This document shows positions 464 through 15,068 of a DNA stretch of 37,914 nucleotides, in pieces. How positions within the stretch are numbered: the first letter of the stretch is position 1; each line of letters starts with the position of its first letter. The notes beneath the pieces are model-generated. The model did not search any database and was not told where the DNA came from. It was given only the letters and a program-made list of their open reading frames with translations. The DNA lies in the IMG/VR virus record IMGVR_UViG_3300021960_000209, positions 1 to 37,914 of that record; one strand, given 5' to 3'. The position numbers were made by a program, and so were the translations under genes. The DNA is from a virus.

Positions 464-582
464 CCTGCGAGTATTGCCAAAGTGAATTTGGAAAAGGTGG
501 AGGTATTTCGGTCAAAGGTGAAGATTACATTCTCAATGTATGCATGAATTGTTTGAACTCGTTAGGAGATCAAAATGATTGA
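424..582 (+). CDS. Small CxxC...CxxC zinc-ribbon-like protein (52 aa)
   Basis: A 52-residue reading frame starts at ATG 424 inside the end of gp44 (40-nt overlap) and stops at TGA 580-582, overlapping the next gene by 8 nt. The protein begins MSNTDDGGIDLELTCEYC and has two cysteine pairs, CEYC (about residues 15-18) and CMNC (40-43), with a spacing typical of a small zinc ribbon. Nested coupling to both neighbours argues that it is a real gene. No function can be assigned; small zinc ribbons in T4-like phages are often nucleic-acid or protein-binding accessory factors. It begins the group of genes inserted between gp44 and gp62. Confidence 0.65.
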   Translation: MSNTDDGGIDLELTCEYCQSEFGKGGGISVKGEDYILNVCMNCLNSLGDQND

Positions 583-1612
583 TGTAGAGTCAGATAAAAT
601 TCTTGTAAAAAAAATCCAAAGTGAACAATGGATTGGTCATGTTTTAAAAGATAAAAATTTTGAAAATTTTTTCGCGACCCCTCATTGGAATAGAACTTTA
701 TACGTAGGAAAAACTTCACCGTTTTTTGTTGGTGATTGGGAAGAGGCGTTTGAAAAAAATAAGTTAAATAAAAAAAAGCTATCTAAATTAAAAGAGTTTG
801 GATGGTTGGATCAAACAATAGATTACCATATAGATGTTAATGGGTTCAGAACCGATAACTCTATAAAAGATTATAATGATTATGCAAAAGGTGATAATGT
901 AATATATGCTGGTTGTAGTCATGTTTTTGGTACTGGTGTAAATTTAGAAGACACGTGGTCTTATAAATTGCACAAACAAATACATCCAGAAAAAAATTAC
1001 GTTAATATCTCTACTCCGGGATCAGGTATAGAAACAATTTATAGATATCTTAGATATTGGATACCTAGACTTAAACCATCACACGTTTATATTCAAAATC
1101 TTTGGCCTAGTACTAGGGGAGAAATATGGCAACCTATCAGACAAGATTTTGATTTATTCTTATCGTCATATGCTCCAAGTAGAGATTACTTATTAGAAAA
1201 AGAAAAACTATTAACAGAAGATGATTTTCATAATGAGTTACAAACTATGACGTGGTTCTTTGTTAATAAGTATTATCCTGAAAAATCTGCTCCAAACATA
1301 GATTATACCGAAAGTATTAATTTTTCTGTTAATGTTTGTTATGATCCACAGCCTAGTCTAATGAGACTAATAAAAAATTTAGATGCACTAAAATATGTAT
1401 TTTGGAAATATAAAGTGAAGGGTTATATGTTTCCTATGTTGGATGCTGTTAGAAACCTCGAAAATAACATTTTTACAATGGTAGATAATGCTAGAGATTT
1501 GTGGCATCCTGGAAAGATAACGCACACTAAATGGAAAAACTACTATGCTAATTTAATTGATAATTATAAGGAATTTGATTACTATAATACATCAGAGACA
1601 TGGCATGATTAA
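575..1612 (+). CDS. SGNH/GDSL hydrolase-like protein, copy A (345 aa)
   Basis: First of three tandem paralogues. The SGNH reading rests on GCSHVFGTGVNLEDTW, a block-I-type motif with candidate nucleophile Ser115, a glycine motif STPGSGI (block II), and ARDLWHPG near the C terminus with Asp308 and His311 in a DxxH arrangement (block V). An Asn in YIQNLW could be the block III position. SGNH enzymes hydrolyse esters of lipids or sugars; the substrate here is unknown. There is no signal peptide or membrane segment, so it should act in the cytoplasm or in the virion. Start ATG 575 overlaps the zinc-protein gene. The DNA is richer in A-runs than the flanking replication genes, suggesting separate acquisition. 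The fold call is fairly confident, the activity is not shown. Confidence 0.7.
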   Translation: MIDVESDKILVKKIQSEQWIGHVLKDKNFENFFATPHWNRTLYVGKTSPFFVGDWEEAFEKNKLNKKKLSKLKEFGWLDQTIDYHIDVNGFRTDNSIKDYNDYAKGDNVIYAGCSHVFGTGVNLEDTWSYKLHKQIHPEKNYVNISTPGSGIETIYRYLRYWIPRLKPSHVYIQNLWPSTRGEIWQPIRQDFDLFLSSYAPSRDYLLEKEKLLTEDDFHNELQTMTWFFVNKYYPEKSAPNIDYTESINFSVNVCYDPQPSLMRLIKNLDALKYVFWKYKVKGYMFPMLDAVRNLENNIFTMVDNARDLWHPGKITHTKWKNYYANLIDNYKEFDYYNTSETWHD

Positions 1613-2657
1613 TGTAGAAAGTCAAAAAAAAATTGTTGAAAATATTACTGATGACCGATGGATAGATAGCGTCAACAAGGATGAAAATTATAAAAATGTT
1701 TTCTCACCTCCTAAATGGTGTAGACAAAATCATACAGGACATTCATTATTAGGAAAAACATCTTTTTTTCATATGGGCGATACAGCACAAGACTTTGAAC
1801 AAAATAAGTTAAATAACAAAAAATTAAGTTTATTAAAACAAAATGGATGGCTAGAAGAAGCAATAAGATATCATATTGATATGAATGGTTTTAGAACAGA
1901 CAATTCTGTAAAAGATTATCATGATTATACAGATCAAGATAATGTAATATATGCAGGATGTAGTTATTCATTTGGTACTGGTCTAAATTTAGAAGATACG
2001 TGGACTTATAGATTACATAAACAAATACATAAAGAAAAAAATTATGTTAATCTTTCTTCGCCAGGAGTAGGTATAGAAAGCATCTATAGGTATATGAGAT
2101 ACTGGATACCAAAACTTAAGCCTTCTCATGTATATATTCAACATATGTGGACAAGCTCTAGATCTGAATTATGGTATCCAACTAGAGGAGATTATGATGC
2201 TAACCTTAGTTTCTTTACTCCTGATGTTAGCTACCTAACTAAAAAGGAACAATTGCTAACAGAAAAAGATTTTCTTAATTCATTACAAAAAACGCATTGG
2301 TTTTTTATAAACAAATATTATTCAGATAAATCAGCTCCTAATATAAATTATCCAGAGAGTGTAAATTTTTCTCTTAGTGTTTTATATGATCCACAGCCTA
2401 GTATGTTAAGATTAATTAAAAATTTAGATGCATTAAAATTTTTATTCTGGAAATATAAAGTTAAAGGATATATATTTCCTAAAATAGATATTCAGGAAAA
2501 AAACCTCTACAATAAGACTGATATTGATGATTTTGCTAGAGACTTAATGCATCCAGGAAAAAAGACACACATAGTGTGGAATTCATATTACAAGGATATA
2601 ATTAAACAATACAAAGAATTTGATTATTACAATACATCAGAGGTTTGGCGTGACTAA
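1605..2657 (+). CDS. SGNH/GDSL hydrolase-like protein, copy B (350 aa)
   Basis: Second paralogue. I chose ATG 1605 because its N terminus (MINVESQKKIV) aligns with copy A (MIDVESDKILV); an upstream in-frame ATG at 1557 lies deep inside copy A. The 8-nt overlap repeats the arrangement at the start of copy A. Conserved features are GCSYSFGTGLNLEDTW with Ser120, SSPGVGI, and ARDLMHPG with Asp313 and His316. The block-III-like position is His (YIQHMW) instead of Asn in copy A. The C terminus NTSEVWRD matches NTSETWHD of copy A. It is probably translationally coupled to its neighbours. Hydrolase activity and substrate are inferred only from the family. Confidence 0.7.
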   Translation: MINVESQKKIVENITDDRWIDSVNKDENYKNVFSPPKWCRQNHTGHSLLGKTSFFHMGDTAQDFEQNKLNNKKLSLLKQNGWLEEAIRYHIDMNGFRTDNSVKDYHDYTDQDNVIYAGCSYSFGTGLNLEDTWTYRLHKQIHKEKNYVNLSSPGVGIESIYRYMRYWIPKLKPSHVYIQHMWTSSRSELWYPTRGDYDANLSFFTPDVSYLTKKEQLLTEKDFLNSLQKTHWFFINKYYSDKSAPNINYPESVNFSLSVLYDPQPSMLRLIKNLDALKFLFWKYKVKGYIFPKIDIQEKNLYNKTDIDDFARDLMHPGKKTHIVWNSYYKDIIKQYKEFDYYNTSEVWRD

Positions 2658-3729
2658 ACAAATACATGTAGTTGAAAAAGATCTTGCTATTGTTAGTAAT
2701 ATTAAAACAGACAAATGGGTTGAAATCTCTCAACAACATTTACAATATAAAAATATTTTTGCTAGACCATTATGGTACCCAGAACTTTATGGCAAGTCAC
2801 ATGAATATATGGCTGGTGATACTGAACAATTGTTTGAAATGCATAAGCGAGCATCTAAAACATATAATATTCTTAAAAAAGAAGGATGGTTAAATCAAAA
2901 AATTTTATATCATATTGATGTAAACGGATTTAGAACTGATAACTCAATTAAGGACTACCATGAATATAAAGGTCATGATAATGTTCTTTGGTGCGGATGC
3001 AGTTTAAATTGGGGTACAGGTATAAACATTGAACAAACTTATTCTTACATTTTACATAAAAGAATTCACCCTAATAAAAACTACGTCAATATCAGCACAC
3101 CTGGGCAAGGTATAGATGCTTTGTTTAGATATTTAAGATATTGGATTCCTATTCTAAAACCAACCCATGTGTACATACAACATTTGTGGACTAGTTCTAG
3201 AACAGATATGTGGCACCCCGGTATAGGTGCTTTTGAGTCAGCAAAATCAAATCATCCTTCGCCTGAAACTATCGCTAATAAAGATAACAAATTAGATCAC
3301 ATTGATGATCCTGACAGTCCAACTATGTGGTACATTTCAAGTAGAATTAATCCCGATAAAGTACCACATAAAGATTGGGAAAAGAGCTTAGATTTCACAG
3401 ATAGTGTTCTTTATAGTCCTCAGCCAAGTTTAATTAGATTGGTAAAAAATTTAGATGCATTAAAATTTTTATTTTGGAAACATAAGGTTAAAGGATATAT
3501 TTTTCCTATCTATGTTGATTTGTTTGAGACTAAAAGTAAATATTATCCTATGGATTTTGGAAGAGATTGTATGCATCCTGGAGTACAAACAAATATAAAT
3601 TGGGTTGATCATTATCATAGAATAATAGATGGTTATGAGAAGTGTGAGCCGTTTAAACTTTATAAAGTAAAAGATCAAACATTTGACTATTTTGATTGGT
3701 ATGGAACATCGGAAGTGTGGAGTGACTGA
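2650..3729 (+). CDS. SGNH/GDSL hydrolase-like protein, copy C (359 aa, GTG start)
   Basis: Third and most divergent paralogue. The likely start is GTG 2650, placed at the same overlap position as the start of copy B: it reuses the Trp-x-Asp end codons of copy B and gives MTKQIHVVEKD in line with the other two N termini. Motifs kept are GCSLNWGTGINIEQTY with Ser118, STPGQGI, and GRDCMHPG with Asp306 and His309. It carries an extra segment before the C-terminal YGTSEVWSD. Gene 62 begins one base after its stop. The retained Ser and Asp-His suggest selection on all three copies. The substrate is unknown. Confidence 0.68.
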   Translation: MTKQIHVVEKDLAIVSNIKTDKWVEISQQHLQYKNIFARPLWYPELYGKSHEYMAGDTEQLFEMHKRASKTYNILKKEGWLNQKILYHIDVNGFRTDNSIKDYHEYKGHDNVLWCGCSLNWGTGINIEQTYSYILHKRIHPNKNYVNISTPGQGIDALFRYLRYWIPILKPTHVYIQHLWTSSRTDMWHPGIGAFESAKSNHPSPETIANKDNKLDHIDDPDSPTMWYISSRINPDKVPHKDWEKSLDFTDSVLYSPQPSLIRLVKNLDALKFLFWKHKVKGYIFPIYVDLFETKSKYYPMDFGRDCMHPGVQTNINWVDHYHRIIDGYEKCEPFKLYKVKDQTFDYFDWYGTSEVWSD

Positions 3730-7983: not shown

Positions 7984-8907
7984 ATGATTGAAGCAACTAA
8001 ATTAAATGTAGGGTGGGGATATGAAGTAAAGTGTGATTTACATACTATTACTAATGAAGAAATACTTGAAATTGGAAAACTGTTAAAGTACAACCAAGTA
8101 GTAGTAATTAAAGGTCATCCTAATTTAGATCCTAAAGTACTACAAAGATTGTGCCATGGCTGTGGTGATATGGAAGGATATTCAAATAAGGTAAACTTGT
8201 ATGATGATCCTAATACACCAGAGAATATGGCACATTGGGCAAATACAATTGAGTCTCCTTCTACTAGACAGAGATACATAGATTATTGTACTGCACCTGG
8301 TGTAATGAGAGTTACAGGTAAACTTACTCCAGATGGTAGACGTACTGGATTCTTTGGGGATAAAGAAGATCTCGACTGGCATTGTAATAAGCCATCGAAT
8401 GAAAAGAGACATTCATACGTTTCACTATATTCCGTAGAAGGATCTGTTGGAAGTCAAACATCTTGGCTTGATACAAGTAAAGCATGGAATGACTTATCTG
8501 ATGATAAAAGAGACTTTTATAAAAAATTAGGGTTGACTATAGGCCATAAAATAGGTAGATTTAGTCATGATCCATCATTTATTGATCATATTAATGATCG
8601 TAAGTTATGGCCACTTGTTCTTGACAAATACGGTAAGACAGGTATGTTTTTCCCAATGTATCAAGTTTTTGGTATGGGTTTACTTAAAGAAGATGAAGTT
8701 AATTCTATTGAAGGTTGGGAAGACGAATGGGGATGGCTCAGACAGCATGTCCTCAAGGAAGAATATATGTATCATCACTTCTGGGAGGATGGTGACCTCG
8801 TAATGTCTGATCAAGATATTACTCTCCACAAAAGGTGGGAATTTGATAAAATGGAAGATAGACTTATGTGGCGTATTGCTCATGGAGTCGATAACGTAAA
8901 GGATTGA
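7984..8907 (+). CDS. TauD/TfdA-like 2OG oxygenase family protein with HxN in place of HxD (307 aa)
   Basis: The middle resembles TauD-family enzymes: LDWHCNKPSNEKRHSYVSLY, then SQTSWLDTSKAWNDLS, and a C-terminal GDLVMSDQDITLHKRW with distal His282 and later Arg297 for 2OG. TauD enzymes bind Fe(II) by HxD...H and use 2OG to hydroxylate small molecules. Here the first motif is His133-Cys134-Asn135, so the acidic iron ligand is Asn. The enzyme may be altered or inactive, or use another acidic residue. It has good spacing from AAAGGA to ATG 7984. It sits inside the replication cluster between gp43 and uvsX, with small genes on both sides. The family is clear, the activity uncertain. Confidence 0.75.
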   Translation: MIEATKLNVGWGYEVKCDLHTITNEEILEIGKLLKYNQVVVIKGHPNLDPKVLQRLCHGCGDMEGYSNKVNLYDDPNTPENMAHWANTIESPSTRQRYIDYCTAPGVMRVTGKLTPDGRRTGFFGDKEDLDWHCNKPSNEKRHSYVSLYSVEGSVGSQTSWLDTSKAWNDLSDDKRDFYKKLGLTIGHKIGRFSHDPSFIDHINDRKLWPLVLDKYGKTGMFFPMYQVFGMGLLKEDEVNSIEGWEDEWGWLRQHVLKEEYMYHHFWEDGDLVMSDQDITLHKRWEFDKMEDRLMWRIAHGVDNVKD

Positions 8908-10364: not shown

Positions 10365-11688
10365 TGAAGACTACGTAAGAAAAGTACTTCCATACATTAA
10401 AGCAGAGTACTTTCCTGATTTTAGTGAAAGAACTACGCTTAACTGTATTGTAGAGTTTTTTGATAAGTATAACAAACCTCCTACCAAGGAGGCTCTCAAT
10501 GTTATGCTTTCAGACTTCGATAAGTTTTCAGAAGATCATTACAAAGGTGCTGTCGATATGGTTCAAAGTTTTGAGCCATCTGATGATAGTATTGAATGGC
10601 TTGTTGATCAGACTGAAAAGTTCTGTCAAGATAAAGCTGTATACAATGCTATCATGGACAGCATTCAGATATTAGAAGGCAAGAGTAAGAATGACAAAGG
10701 ATCTATACCAGACCTTTTGCATCAGGCTTTGGGTGTATCTTTTGACGCTCATATTGGACATGACTACATTGAGGATGCAGATGCTAGATTTGATTTTTAT
10801 CACCGCAAAGAAATTAAGACAAAGTTTGATCTCGACAAGCTCAACGATATTACGAAGGGTGGCTTGTCAAATAAAACCCTTAACGTGGCATTGGCTGGCA
10901 CTGGAGTGGGTAAGTCTTTGTTTATGTGTCATTGTGCTGCAGCTAATCTAAGAGACAATAAGAACGTATTATACATTACGTTAGAAATGTCTGAGGAAAG
11001 AATTGCAGAACGTATTGATGCTAACCTAATGGGCATAACATTAGATGAGCTACAAGAGATTCCTAAAGACAGTTTTGAGAAGAAAATAAATAGAGTTAAG
11101 AATAACTTCAAGGGTCGAGTTAAGATTAAGGAGTATCCTACAACAGGTGCTGGTGCAAACCATTTCCGACATCTTCTAAATGAGTTAAAGATCAAACAAA
11201 ACTTTGTTCCAGATATCATTTATGTTGACTACTTGAATATTTGTATGAGTTCGAGGATTCGTTATGGAGCAGGAGTCAATTCGTACACGTATGTCAAAGC
11301 GATTGCAGAAGAGTTACGCGGACTCGCTGTGGAATTCGACTTGCCAATCGTCACTGCGACACAAACCACAAGATCGGGTTACACGTCTAGTGATGTGGGG
11401 CTTGAAGACACCTCGGAGAGCTTTGGTCTGCCAGCGACTGCTGACTTTATGTTTGCGCTTATTAGCACTGAAGAACTCGAAGAACTCGGACAATTATTGA
11501 TTAAACAGTTAAAGAATAGATATAGTGATCCTAATACTAACAGACGATTTGTAGTAGGAGTAGATAGATCTAGAATGACACTACATAATGTGGAGCAAGT
11601 TGCACAAGATGATATTATTGATGATGCACCTGCGTTTGATCATACTGAAGTAGGTATACGACAACAATTTGAAGGATTTAAGTTTTGA
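10327..11688 (+). CDS. 41: Replicative DNA helicase gp41 (DnaB-like, 453 aa, TTG start)
   Basis: DnaB-type hexameric helicase. Walker A is GTGVGKS at residues 191-197; Walker B is IIYVDYLNIC with Asp301. Long matches to T4 gp41 include SYTYVKAIAEELRGLAVE and SFGLPATADFMFALI. The N terminus (M)IEKLILSNLI aligns with T4 MVEIILSHLI when translation starts at TTG 10327, supported by GGAGG 8 bases upstream; the next in-frame ATG is far inside. gp41 unwinds DNA at the fork and partners gp61 primase, encoded at 28.4 kb. It overlaps uvsX by 38 nt. Confidence 0.95.
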   Translation: MIEKLILSNLIHNEDYVRKVLPYIKAEYFPDFSERTTLNCIVEFFDKYNKPPTKEALNVMLSDFDKFSEDHYKGAVDMVQSFEPSDDSIEWLVDQTEKFCQDKAVYNAIMDSIQILEGKSKNDKGSIPDLLHQALGVSFDAHIGHDYIEDADARFDFYHRKEIKTKFDLDKLNDITKGGLSNKTLNVALAGTGVGKSLFMCHCAAANLRDNKNVLYITLEMSEERIAERIDANLMGITLDELQEIPKDSFEKKINRVKNNFKGRVKIKEYPTTGAGANHFRHLLNELKIKQNFVPDIIYVDYLNICMSSRIRYGAGVNSYTYVKAIAEELRGLAVEFDLPIVTATQTTRSGYTSSDVGLEDTSESFGLPATADFMFALISTEELEELGQLLIKQLKNRYSDPNTNRRFVVGVDRSRMTLHNVEQVAQDDIIDDAPAFDHTEVGIRQQFEGFKF

Positions 11689-11891
11689 GAGGTTACAAAG
11701 TTATTAAAGAAGGAATGTTTCACGTAGTATATGAAACAGCAAATGAATTGAAATTGCGTTCATTTAAAGGGAAAGACTCTGAACAAAGAGCAAAAGATCT
11801 AGCAAGGCACCTAAATTTAGGAGGTGGTTTTGATGGATACACACCAAATTTTTTTAGGGAGATAACATCTTCCTATGGACTTTCGGTATAA
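11685..11891 (+). CDS. Hypothetical protein after gp41 (68 aa, probable TTG start)
   Basis: The frame starts with TTG 11685 overlapping the gp41 stop (TTGA). AAGGA about 9 bases upstream supports this; ATG 11715 is an alternative but is poorly spaced. The sequence is basic with FHVVYETANELKLRSFKGKDSEQRAKDLARHLNLGGGFDGYTP. No known domain is recognised. Its last codons contain the late promoter octamer at 11887-11894. Confidence 0.6.
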   Translation: MRGYKVIKEGMFHVVYETANELKLRSFKGKDSEQRAKDLARHLNLGGGFDGYTPNFFREITSSYGLSV

Positions 11892-11894
11892 ATA
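11887..11894 (+). promoter_or_regulatory. T4-type late promoter TATAAATA for the 11.9-12.07 kb RNA
   Basis: A perfect TATAAATA overlaps the stop of the preceding gene. In T4 the late octamer lies about 6 bases before the start site, so RNA would begin near 11900. No protein gene follows for 280 bases, only hairpins and a terminator. Confidence 0.6.
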
Positions 11895-11899
11895 ATTCT

Positions 11900-12066
11900 G
11901 GCAGGCTATATCAGTATCTATCGGTGGGGGCCGAGGTACTAGAGGCAAGTGGTCATTTGGTCTTAGACCCTAAGGAAATGATTGGAGCAAATGTGGGGTT
12001 CATCCAATCTATAGTCTGACGGAATAAAGAGAAAGGTCCAGTGTTCTTCACATTGGACCTTTTTTA
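11900..12066 (+). ncRNA. Candidate structured late non-coding RNA, about 165 nt
   Basis: Gene-free stretch with its own late promoter octamer and intrinsic terminator. Hairpins seen are: TCGG/CCGA (11921-11924 with 11931-11934) around a G-rich loop, extended by AGTA/TACT (11913-11916 with 11937-11940); GTCATTT/AAATGAT (11952-11958 with 11976-11982, one G-U) capped by CTTAG-ACC-CTAAG (11962-11974); GATTGG/CCAATC (11980-11985 with 12004-12009), which shares bases 11980-11982 with the previous stem, so the two compete. No open frame of useful length lies inside. I do not recognise it as a known riboswitch, tmRNA or tRNA. Confidence 0.55.
12031..12065 (+). terminator. Intrinsic terminator of the candidate ncRNA
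   Basis: AAAGGTCCA (12032-12040) pairs with TGGACCTTT (12054-12062); GTG/CAC extends the stem past a two-base bulge; the loop is TTCTT. Six T follow from 12060 to 12065. Confidence 0.88.
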
Positions 12067-12117
12067 ATTTCGGAGATATTTGTGAGTTGCAGAGAAGTCA
12101 TTTACATCCCTTGGTTG

Positions 12118-12147
12118 TTGAAATCTGTTAACATAGATATTTATATC
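12118..12147 (+). promoter_or_regulatory. Weak sigma70-like promoter candidate for the 12.2 kb cassette
   Basis: TTGAAA at 12118-12123 and TATATC at 12142-12147 are 18 bp apart, after the terminator and before the 12175 gene. Matches are partial. The rest of the gap 12066-12174 holds nothing else that I can recognise apart from a minus-strand TATAAATA at 12138-12145. Confidence 0.3.
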
Positions 12148-12174: not shown

Positions 12175-12372
12175 ATGGATTTATATCCAAAAGCTCAAGA
12201 TTTTAATGATGGTTTAGCTTTTTGCAGAAAAAGAGGGACTGAGGAACCTTATGTCGAATATTTCCTTGACTCTTATCTAAAAACAGGGGATGTTAAGTTT
12301 AGTAAGAATAATGCTATAAGGTTAGCTTGTGGCATTACAGATACTAACATATACAACTTGGAGTTTTTATAA
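12175..12372 (+). CDS. Hypothetical protein (65 aa)
   Basis: ATG 12175 has GATGAGG about 8 bases upstream and the stop overlaps the next start by one base (TAATG). The protein is MDLYPKAQDFNDGLAFC... with no recognised domain, signal or membrane segment. It is the first gene after the candidate ncRNA and its terminator, and the first of a tight chain that leads into the radical SAM genes. Confidence 0.55.
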   Translation: MDLYPKAQDFNDGLAFCRKRGTEEPYVEYFLDSYLKTGDVKFSKNNAIRLACGITDTNIYNLEFL

Positions 12373-12575
12373 TGCAACGTCCCGGTAAAATGCATCGAGC
12401 TGGTCTCGCTGATCATGTAGATTCTGTTACTATTAGTCAGCTGACTAAGTTCTTTGAGCAAGCTGCTAAAGAAGTTGAAGATCCTTTTTACTTCGAGCAG
12501 ATTGTAGACTATCTAAAGAACCACTACAAGTCCTCTAAGGGTTTAGAATCACCTGCGAGAGTACTAGGGTTGTAA
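12372..12575 (+). CDS. Hypothetical protein (67 aa)
   Basis: It is linked by one-base TAATG overlaps to both neighbours. The sequence is mainly helical in appearance (SVTISQLTKFFEQAAKEVEDPFYFEQIVDYLKNHYKSS), with no recognised domain. The overlaps suggest translational coupling with the radical SAM gene downstream, so a shared role is possible but not shown. Confidence 0.55.
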   Translation: MQRPGKMHRAGLADHVDSVTISQLTKFFEQAAKEVEDPFYFEQIVDYLKNHYKSSKGLESPARVLGL

Positions 12576-13663
12576 TGTTTGAGTGTGGTTATCTATCCCA
12601 TGGGATGTATGTATCGATAGGATTAAATGGTGATATCTATCCTTGCTGTTTTGCAAGCGATGGTCAAGCATCAATAAAAGATAAAAATGACTCCGACGAT
12701 ATTTTAAATGGACGATTTATAACCAAACTTAGAAGGCAAGCGCTGGACAATAAGGTTCCTGATATTTGTTCTGGATGTATAAAAAGAGAACAAATAACAG
12801 GAACCAGTCCAAGGATTAAAAACAATCACTTTATCGACAATACTGTTAAGGAAGTTATATCAGAAGAAGATGTTAGGTATATTCAAGTAAGATTATCTAA
12901 TGTTTGTAATTTTCAATGTACGATTTGTGGAGGTGGTAGTAGTCATTTAATTGCAAAAGAAGAGGGAATGAAGAATCCACTTCAAATTATTGAAGACGAT
13001 GTTTACAATCAATTAAAAAAAAGATTACCTAAGATGAGTGATCTACAAACAATAGTTTTTGCTGGTGGTGAACCTTTTTACAATACAAAAAAATTGATAG
13101 AATTACTTGACTATATTCCAAAAACAGTAAAACGTATAGCTATGCATACTAATGGTTCTGTATATGATAAACAATTGCTTGATAAATTATATGAATTTAA
13201 TTTTCCTATAATTGACTTTAGTTTTGATGGAACAGGTAGATTTTTTGAGTATCAACGTAGAAATGGTAAATGGGATGAAGTATTAAATAATTTAAAAAAA
13301 ATAAAAGAAAATTATCCTCGTATATGGATTCAAGGTAATAATACAATTACAAATACAACATTCATTAACTTACCTGATTTTCTCAGAGAAATGAAACCTT
13401 ATTTTAATAAAATAGACAATGTGTTTATTCAGAATCCTGTATATTATCAGATCAATACAGTGAAACCAGAAGTTTTAAACAAAATTAAATCTCAAATTGA
13501 AGATGATATTATTGTTAAAAATATTGATTATGCATTAAACAATCCAGCACCCAGCAATGTTATAAGAGCTTTTTGGAATCGAGTTAGTTATTTAAATAGC
13601 AAACAACATAACATATATGATTATATTCCTGAAATAAGGGACATAGTAAGGATATCAAATTAA
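12575..13663 (+). CDS. Radical SAM protein with N-terminal twitch/SPASM-like cysteine cluster, copy 1 (362 aa)
   Basis: The N-terminal part starts with GLNGDIYPCCFASDG (Cys24, Cys25) and ICSGCIKR (Cys65, Cys68), which look like ligands of an auxiliary iron-sulfur cluster of the SPASM/twitch type. The radical SAM motif CNFQCTIC gives Cys111, Cys115 and Cys118, and FAGGEPFY is the SAM-binding GGE motif. In most SPASM enzymes the auxiliary domain is C-terminal; here it comes first. Radical SAM enzymes cleave SAM to start radical chemistry; SPASM/twitch members often modify peptides or sugars. The substrate is unknown. The gene is AT-rich and sits in an accessory block, immediately followed by a paralogue. 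Confidence 0.82.
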   Translation: MFECGYLSHGMYVSIGLNGDIYPCCFASDGQASIKDKNDSDDILNGRFITKLRRQALDNKVPDICSGCIKREQITGTSPRIKNNHFIDNTVKEVISEEDVRYIQVRLSNVCNFQCTICGGGSSHLIAKEEGMKNPLQIIEDDVYNQLKKRLPKMSDLQTIVFAGGEPFYNTKKLIELLDYIPKTVKRIAMHTNGSVYDKQLLDKLYEFNFPIIDFSFDGTGRFFEYQRRNGKWDEVLNNLKKIKENYPRIWIQGNNTITNTTFINLPDFLREMKPYFNKIDNVFIQNPVYYQINTVKPEVLNKIKSQIEDDIIVKNIDYALNNPAPSNVIRAFWNRVSYLNSKQHNIYDYIPEIRDIVRISN

Positions 13664-14679
13664 TGAGCGAGGTATTGTGTCCTTTACCTTTTGTAAACAT
13701 TCATATTTTACCTAACGGTCACGTTTATCCTTGTTGTTCATGGAAAAGAGAACCTTATGGAAATATAAACAGAGAAGATATTGAAAATATTTGGAATAAC
13801 AATAAATTTAAAAAACTACGAAATATGATGATTGAAAATCAATGGCCTGCTGGATGTGCATCGTGTAAAATAAAAGAGCAAAGTGGTTTTAAAAATATGC
13901 GTCTTCTTTCACATGAAGTACATGATAATTTTCTCATAAACGAAACATTACCTACTAAATTTGATGAATGGGATATACGTAATAGTAATTTATGTAATTT
14001 AAAATGCCAAACTTGTGATGCATTGTATAGTAGTTTACACAATGAAGGAGTAGAATTAAAAGTACCTAATGATCAACTATATAAGATAATCGACAGAGAC
14101 GTTAAAACTGTTAAAAAAATATATTTTGCTGGCGGTGAGCCTCTAATTAATGATTTTCATTATTATGTTATAGAGAAATTAATAGAAAATAATAGATCAG
14201 ATTGTTGGCTTCAATACAGTACTAATTTAACTAAACTAGATTATAGAAAATATAATATAATAGATAAATGGAAATTTTTTGATAAAGTTAATGTTTTTGC
14301 TAGTATAGATTCGTTAGGATCTAAAAACGAAACTATTAGAGAAAATAGTAATTGGAATGTATTAGAGAAAAATTTTGCAAAATTAAGTGATGCTGTAAAT
14401 GAAAAACTAAAATTATGGATTTCAGTCACCGTTAGTAAGTTAAACGTAGCTGATGTCCCTGATATATATTTTTATTTTAAAGAAAAGAATATACCTATTA
14501 CTTTTCATAACATACTAGTTGGTCCACGTAAATTTAGATTTGATGCAATGAATAATTCTGAAATTGATGTTGCATTAACCAACCTTTCACAGTATATTAG
14601 TTGCGATGATAAATTTCTTTCTGATGTGTGTGTAAAGTTAACTGGAGCAATTAATCGGATGGTAGGGAGACCAGAATGA
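13663..14679 (+). CDS. Radical SAM protein with N-terminal twitch/SPASM-like cysteine cluster, copy 2 (338 aa)
   Basis: Same architecture as the gene before it. LPNGHVYPCCSW (Cys24, Cys25) and GCASCKIKE (Cys65, Cys68) form the N-terminal cluster, CNLKCQTC gives Cys111, Cys115 and Cys118, and FAGGEPLI is the GGE motif. All seven cysteines have the same residue numbers as in copy 1 although the rest has diverged widely. ATG 13663 overlaps the stop of copy 1 by one base, so the two are probably made together and may act in one pathway or complex. It overlaps the lipoprotein gene by 4 nt (ATGA). Confidence 0.82.
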   Translation: MSEVLCPLPFVNIHILPNGHVYPCCSWKREPYGNINREDIENIWNNNKFKKLRNMMIENQWPAGCASCKIKEQSGFKNMRLLSHEVHDNFLINETLPTKFDEWDIRNSNLCNLKCQTCDALYSSLHNEGVELKVPNDQLYKIIDRDVKTVKKIYFAGGEPLINDFHYYVIEKLIENNRSDCWLQYSTNLTKLDYRKYNIIDKWKFFDKVNVFASIDSLGSKNETIRENSNWNVLEKNFAKLSDAVNEKLKLWISVTVSKLNVADVPDIYFYFKEKNIPITFHNILVGPRKFRFDAMNNSEIDVALTNLSQYISCDDKFLSDVCVKLTGAINRMVGRPE

Positions 14680-15068
14680 AAAAACTAATACTAATATCAA
14701 TCCTGGCATTGGGTTTGTCCGCTTGTTATACTAACGGTGAGACAAATGGTGCTGTTGTTGGTGCAGTCGCTGGTGGAATACTGGGAAATGCAGTTGGTAA
14801 GACTGCTGGTACTATTGCTGGTGCTGCAGTTGGAGGAATGGTTGGTTCGTCTATTGGCAAACACATGGATGAACACGAAACACAAACTCGAGTGAAAACT
14901 GAACCGCTACCACCGCCACCTCCTGGAGCTAGCTACGAATGTAAGGATATTGAAAATGAAGGAGTTCGTTCCTCTTGTGAACGAGGTATAGCAGATCGTA
15001 ACAAAGCTGCACAACAAGAAGCTGAGACGAGAGCCTACAAATGTGCTAGGCATGGATGGTGTCAGTAA
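14676..15068 (+). CDS. Lipoprotein with glycine-zipper segment (130 aa)
   Basis: The N terminus MKKLILISILALGLSAC is a bacterial lipoprotein signal with lipobox LSAC (Cys17). Residues about 24-65 are a Gly/Ala-rich run of the glycine-zipper 2TM type (VVGAVAGGILGNAVG and similar), followed by a Pro-rich linker and a Cys-containing tail (YECKDIE, SSCERG, KCARHGWC). Host outer-membrane lipoproteins such as SlyB share this pattern. In a phage it could alter the cell envelope, for example in superinfection exclusion or lysis; that is inference. It overlaps the second radical SAM gene. Confidence 0.78.
   Translation: MKKLILISILALGLSACYTNGETNGAVVGAVAGGILGNAVGKTAGTIAGAAVGGMVGSSIGKHMDEHETQTRVKTEPLPPPPPGASYECKDIENEGVRSSCERGIADRNKAAQQEAETRAYKCARHGWCQ

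Follow-up and report, generated by a model that had tools for sequence, protein, structure and literature searches.

Described RNAs Closest to the Locus

Few viruses have been studied as thoroughly as the T4-like phages, and T4 itself encodes two stable small RNAs in its tRNA cluster, RNA C and RNA D, whose function is not known. The GOLLD and ROOL RNAs of phages and bacteria are large and ornate, several times longer than the RNA considered here; the pRNA of phage phi29 is a 174-nt RNA closed by an end helix; and 6S RNA is a stand-alone RNA that binds a conserved partner and folds as a single long hairpin bulged at its center. Structured RNAs from marine samples and T4-like cyanophages include the manA, wcaG, and PhotoRC-II motifs, of which manA and wcaG are tied to neighboring genes, manA occurring in potential 5′ UTRs (PMC2864571).

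Here we describe an RNA in a 37,914-nt viral sequence (positions 1 to 37,914 of IMGVR_UViG_3300021960_000209; hereafter the window, meaning the whole stretch analyzed). Our reading, to which we assign a probability of about 80%, is that it is a stand-alone noncoding RNA gene belonging to a widespread, uncatalogued family, with a T4-type late promoter and a terminator, and that it most likely acts in trans late in infection. The genre is not new, given that stand-alone phage RNAs already exist. GOLLD and ROOL resemble the present RNA in that they are structured RNAs with genes of their own, some of them in phages, and with little or no known function (PMC12286853, in part, together with general background), but the present RNA is only about 150–170 nt long and follows a T4-type late promoter. 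It shares with phi29 pRNA its approximate size and a closing end helix and differs from it in junction and loops; moreover, we saw no link to a terminase gene, the neighbors being uvsX and gp41. In contrast to manA and wcaG, it forms a separate unit. It is like 6S RNA in standing alone and in length, and RNA C and RNA D are set apart from it in that our covariance model R2 (below) finds nothing in the T4 genome. No match at the gathering score was obtained with the 4227 models of Rfam 15 in the window and 19 other RNA-bearing loci, which separates the RNA from GOLLD, ROOL, pRNA, manA, wcaG, and 6S RNA and agrees with a preliminary description of the window, whose author recognized no RNA family; relaxed E-values gave chance-level matches only. 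As a class, the RNA appears undescribed relative to Rfam and the open-access papers searched, none of which describes it (preprints and closed journals lay outside that scope).

Genome Context

The gene content of the window identifies it as a fragment of a T4-like phage. Recognized genes include those for the clamp loader, a regA-type translation repressor, DNA polymerase (gp43), uvsX, gp41, and ribonucleotide reductase, among others, and the gp41 protein is about 65% identical to those of the closest isolates, Kyanoviridae among these. Three tandem paralogous genes (575–3729; 345, 366, and 369 aa; mutually 45–62% identical) are placed between the gp44-like and gp62-like clamp-loader genes and matched no Pfam, PHROG, or NCBIfam family. 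A TauD/TfdA-family dioxygenase gene (7984–8907) is flanked by DNA polymerase on one side and uvsX on the other. Just 3′ of the RNA region lie two adjacent genes for twitch-domain radical SAM/SPASM proteins (12575–14679; NF033640) that are 26% identical to one another, and positions 14676–15068 encode a small glycine-zipper/OmpA-like protein that scores under the curated cut-offs. ARAGORN found no tRNA or tmRNA gene in the window.

Promoter, Terminator, and Ends of the RNA Gene

The RNA region and its flanks comprise the following features.

11685–11891, + strand: orf68, encoding a small conserved protein immediately 5′ of the RNA; candidate partner
11887–11894, + strand: T4-type late promoter octamer TATAAATA, from its sequence and the TAAATA element of 88 of 88 relatives
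11900–12065, + strand: noncoding RNA gene of about 166 nt, from its fold, R1 score, and 88 distinct relatives
12032–12065, + strand: intrinsic terminator, a long hairpin followed by T6, plain in the computed fold
12118–12147, + strand: putative sigma70-like promoter, degenerate (TTGAAA-18-TATATC), serving the next gene and placed by alignment

The preliminary description had reported a perfect octamer followed by about 165 gene-free bases and a strong intrinsic terminator, and these observations hold. The octamer overlaps the stop codon of orf68, and the ORF list of the window contains no ORF of at least 50 aa between 11892 and 12174, the gene-free gap that separates orf68 from the next ORF (12175–12372). 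Taken alone the octamer is unremarkable, with eight occurrences in the window against 4.9 expected. Among the relatives described below, however, a TAAATA element lies upstream of the RNA in all 88 (70 with a perfect TATAAATA and 12 with (A/G)CTAAATA), compared with 4.5% of random control windows from the same loci. Both the T4 late consensus and the (A/G)CTAAATA variant, the latter from Aeh1, have been described (PMC2988020). The predicted start near 11900 would lie 6 nt 3′ of the octamer, by analogy with T4 late promoters, which occupy –13 to –6, and from the octamer we infer late expression, which in a T4-type late unit would depend on gp55, gp33, and gp45.

The terminator hairpin, although plain in the fold, was not listed by a simple terminator scan of the window. 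In the relatives an automatic test recognizes a terminator in 83 of 88, and of the five that remain at least most have one by eye. Promoter and terminator both lie outside the models used to search for the family. From predicted start to T run the relatives span a median of 151 nt (range 124–208). The fold of 11898–12068 has an energy of –60.2 kcal/mol against –43.5 ± 3.95 for shuffles (none of 200 as good), a z of –4.2 that is partly owed to the terminator hairpin.

Identification of Relatives

Two contigs carry a copy identical to that of the window. The first divergent relative (L002), whose gp41 is 76% identical, has the same conserved blocks in the RNA, and DNA patterns made from these blocks yielded further copies, 13 of which were used to build the covariance model R1. 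R1 scores the window, one of its own sequences, at 90.9 bits (E 1e–24), and in loci fetched for gp41 alone it picked up some two dozen divergent copies; given that gp41 was the only basis on which these loci were chosen, the copies are free of pattern selection. A second model, R2, was built from 36 copies and found two more. The last pattern scan yielded at least 120 contigs, and all 75 new loci were confirmed at E ≤ 6e–12 by R2, itself derived from the structure under test. We kept 88 distinct cores, which are 39–64% identical to the window, all come from uncultivated phages, and mostly adjoin gp41. Part of the sequence invariance reported below stems from the pattern searches, which required GGCAAG and GTGGGGTTC; the members found by R1 share the invariant sequence, yet R1 weights that sequence as well.

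Two outlying members of the family were observed: L268:3266–3500, with an enlarged P3, and L274:7094–7310, which lacks the G-rich P2 loop and has a long P5. A second weak R2 match in one contig was dropped because its stretch does not contain the conserved core.

Searches beyond the family were negative. BLAST of single RNA copies against an isolate-phage collection gave short chance matches only; the family is too divergent for BLAST to be of use with this RNA. An early pattern had 116 matches in a contig scan, with no family member among the matches listed. None of 16 isolate phage records (T4, KVP40, S-PM2, P-SSM2, HTVC008M, and Melnitz included) had a match to R2, from which it follows that the RNA is not an essential component of T4-like phages as a whole. 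R2 was likewise negative in 397 bacterial genomes, sampled from the phyla to which an Alcanivorax and a Synechococcales genome belong, at an E of 0.001 with strict filters; this result is weak evidence.

Conserved Structure

In the consensus, a closing helix (P1) surrounds two hairpins (P2 and P3) and an arm composed of P4 and P6, between which a further hairpin (P5) may be inserted on the 5′ side. All elements below are on the + strand of the window.

11902–11910 with 12010–12018: P1, closing helix; changes on both sides at all pairs in relatives
11913–11918 with 11935–11940, and 11921–11925 with 11930–11934: P2 hairpin, from the alignments of relatives
11944–11949: P2–P3 junction, GGCAAG, near-invariant in relatives
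11951–11954 with 11966–11969: P3 hairpin, conserved in relatives
11974–11977: P3–P4 junction, GGAA, invariant in relatives
11980–11985 with 12004–12009: P4, 100% paired, each pair changed on both sides in relatives
11991–11993 with 12001–12003: P6, 100% paired with changes on both sides, abutting P4 on the 3′ side
11994–12000: P6 loop, UGGGGUU, 7 nt, invariant in relatives

The P2 loop of the window (GGGG, 11926–11929) is retained as a G loop in close relatives only, and a 5-nt bulge in the P4 arm (11986–11990) occupies the place where many relatives have P5.

Conservation of the hairpins in relatives was the test that the preliminary description had set beforehand, and compensatory changes occur in the helices of 36 and then 59 distinct relatives (alignments A4 and A5, respectively, the second repeating the picture of the first). 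In A4, which was fitted to R1 and so leans to the R1 helices, 91.1% of cells are paired, compared with 62.4% after shuffling and 33–41% when partners are slid, and the covariation score is 0.55 versus 0.16. P6 is absent from R1 and is still 100% paired, with both sides changed in 12 and 18 sequences at its first two pairs. We also tested P4 and P6 without a fitted alignment. The strands were taken by their position relative to GGAA and UGGGGUU, namely six bases located a set distance 3′ of GGAA, three bases on each side of UGGGGUU, and the six bases after those. Of the resulting 783 pairs, 782 (99.9%) are canonical, in 41 distinct helix versions, compared with 67.7% when the 3′ strands are shuffled.

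These results revise the hairpins of the preliminary description in two respects. Structure is present and its helices are conserved, but the comparative structure consists of P1 enclosing P2, P3, and the P4/P6 arm rather than of separate hairpins. The two hairpins proposed to be mutually exclusive do overlap in the window, where GGTC at 11951–11954 and GGTC at 11959–11962 are both able to pair with GACC at 11966–11969; the relatives, however, keep only the outer pairing (P3), and the competing hairpin (11959–11962 with 11966–11969) is not conserved. Given that the relatives have only the P3 pairing, we regard this "switch" as a peculiarity of the window copy and attach no functional weight to it.

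Gene Neighborhoods and the Small Protein orf68

In most of the 88 loci the RNA adjoins orf68, and 74 RNA loci yield a distinct orf68 sequence. The gap between them is usually within about 30 nt (median 12 nt on the same strand, 25 nt when convergent). The protein keeps its position next to gp41 and, in most cases, next to the RNA, whichever the orientation. Its consensus contains ...LNLGGGFDGxTPxFF, and it corresponds to phrog_29065, whose annotation gives no function. The predicted fold is beta-beta-beta-alpha (pLDDT 84), for which structural comparison gave no reliable match (none in the PDB at E ≤ 0.001; best VIA Z 3.9). Of 25 gp41 loci that carry the RNA, 22 also have orf68, compared with 12 of 46 in which no RNA was detected (Fisher p 8e–7, confounded by shared ancestry); because shared ancestry can explain the association, we treat it as a lead only. 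Its occurrence in those 12 loci also means that orf68 need not be the partner. With these cautions, orf68 is the first candidate for a protein partner of the RNA.

Alternative Explanations

The alternative that fares best, although we consider it unlikely, is that the RNA is an antisense or base-pairing small RNA whose UGGGGUU loop (and GGCAAG) serve as seeds for phage or host mRNAs. The loop is exposed, G-rich, and invariant, and the RNA has its own promoter and terminator, as do many bacterial small RNAs. However, the complementary AACCCCA is not enriched in RNA-bearing phage loci (44 occurrences against 51.8 expected in 1.45 Mb, both strands), and a seed that does not vary among divergent phages is easier to reconcile with an invariant partner than with changing mRNAs. 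The loop also resembles what we take to be the complement of the 3′ end of tRNA-His, a resemblance to which we give no weight.

We find it improbable that the region is a cis-acting leader, a riboswitch or attenuator whose terminator controls the downstream ORF (12175–12372), even though a structured element and terminator before a gene is the usual riboswitch layout and the next gene is constant in the close family, at about +275–285. A leader is expected at a fixed position, on the same strand, and before the gene it regulates, which is not how this family is arranged: of the 78 loci with gp41, 43 have the RNA and gp41 on one strand and 35 have them on opposite strands, and the downstream genes differ. 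Within the close family the next gene is preceded by a promoter of its own, TTGACT-17-TATAAT, situated after the terminator (in several relatives at the site matching 12118–12147 of the window, where a consensus promoter scan did not call the sigma70-like element), and in 22 members another TAAATA late element follows the terminator. Inspection of the alignments by eye showed no conserved alternative pairing that involves the terminator stem. Based on the occurrence of the RNA on either strand relative to gp41, the varied downstream genes, and the promoters after the terminator, we conclude that the RNA is most likely its own unit and not a leader. The preliminary description had read the arrangement as that of an independently transcribed RNA, a view that the invariable late element, the covariation, the nearly complete pairing of P4 and P6, and the varied neighbors all support.

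A DNA element (a cruciform, replication origin, or recombination site) would account for inverted repeats close to the replication genes gp41 and uvsX, but it is very improbable given a strand-specific excess of G.U over A.C of about 4:1 (83 versus 19 and 129 versus 28 in two alignments), which is unexpected for a DNA cruciform and assigns the structure to the sense-strand RNA; a late element in every relative and terminators of matching polarity likewise argue against it. That the region encodes a small protein is least credible of all: some members have short ORFs of up to 53 codons, but the spacing from GGCA to UGGGGUU modulo 3 falls in all phases (22/28/38), which leaves no conserved frame, the window has no ORF of at least 50 aa there, and substitutions track base pairing.

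Proposed Mode of Action

Returning to the reading of a stand-alone RNA that acts in trans, we suggest that the late promoter would start transcription near 11900 and the terminator would end the transcript near 12065. The transcript would fold into a closed structure in which P1 encloses P2, P3, and the P4-(P5)-P6 arm capped by the UGGGGUU heptaloop. The variable helices may then be a scaffold that presents GGCAAG, the GGAA junction, and the UGGGGUU loop to a partner. Invariant bases within freely covarying helices are expected if the bases are read directly, by a partner or by a tertiary core, and their invariance across divergent phages argues that the partner is equally constant. This partner would be identical across phages, for instance a phage protein (orf68 would be the first to consider) or a host RNA that does not vary. 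For a trans-acting RNA we rank a protein partner as most likely and an RNA partner second.

Significance

A family with more than 100 copies, strong covariation, invariant loops, and a constant neighbor has been found in a well-studied group of phages, and neither Rfam nor the open-access papers searched contain a comparable RNA gene, structured, stand-alone, and late. More tentatively, and as a possibility that we would not yet favor, a large uncultivated branch of the T4-like phages may have the RNA among the core components of its late stage, in which a ribonucleoprotein (perhaps with orf68), or the docking of UGGGGUU and the junction onto an invariant host RNA, would redirect late translation, transcription, or assembly by a mechanism not known from T4. 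With sequence, promoter, ends, structure, and a candidate partner in hand, the role of the RNA in late infection is directly addressable, and the covariance model lets annotators spot it in viral contigs in which the region now reads as empty.
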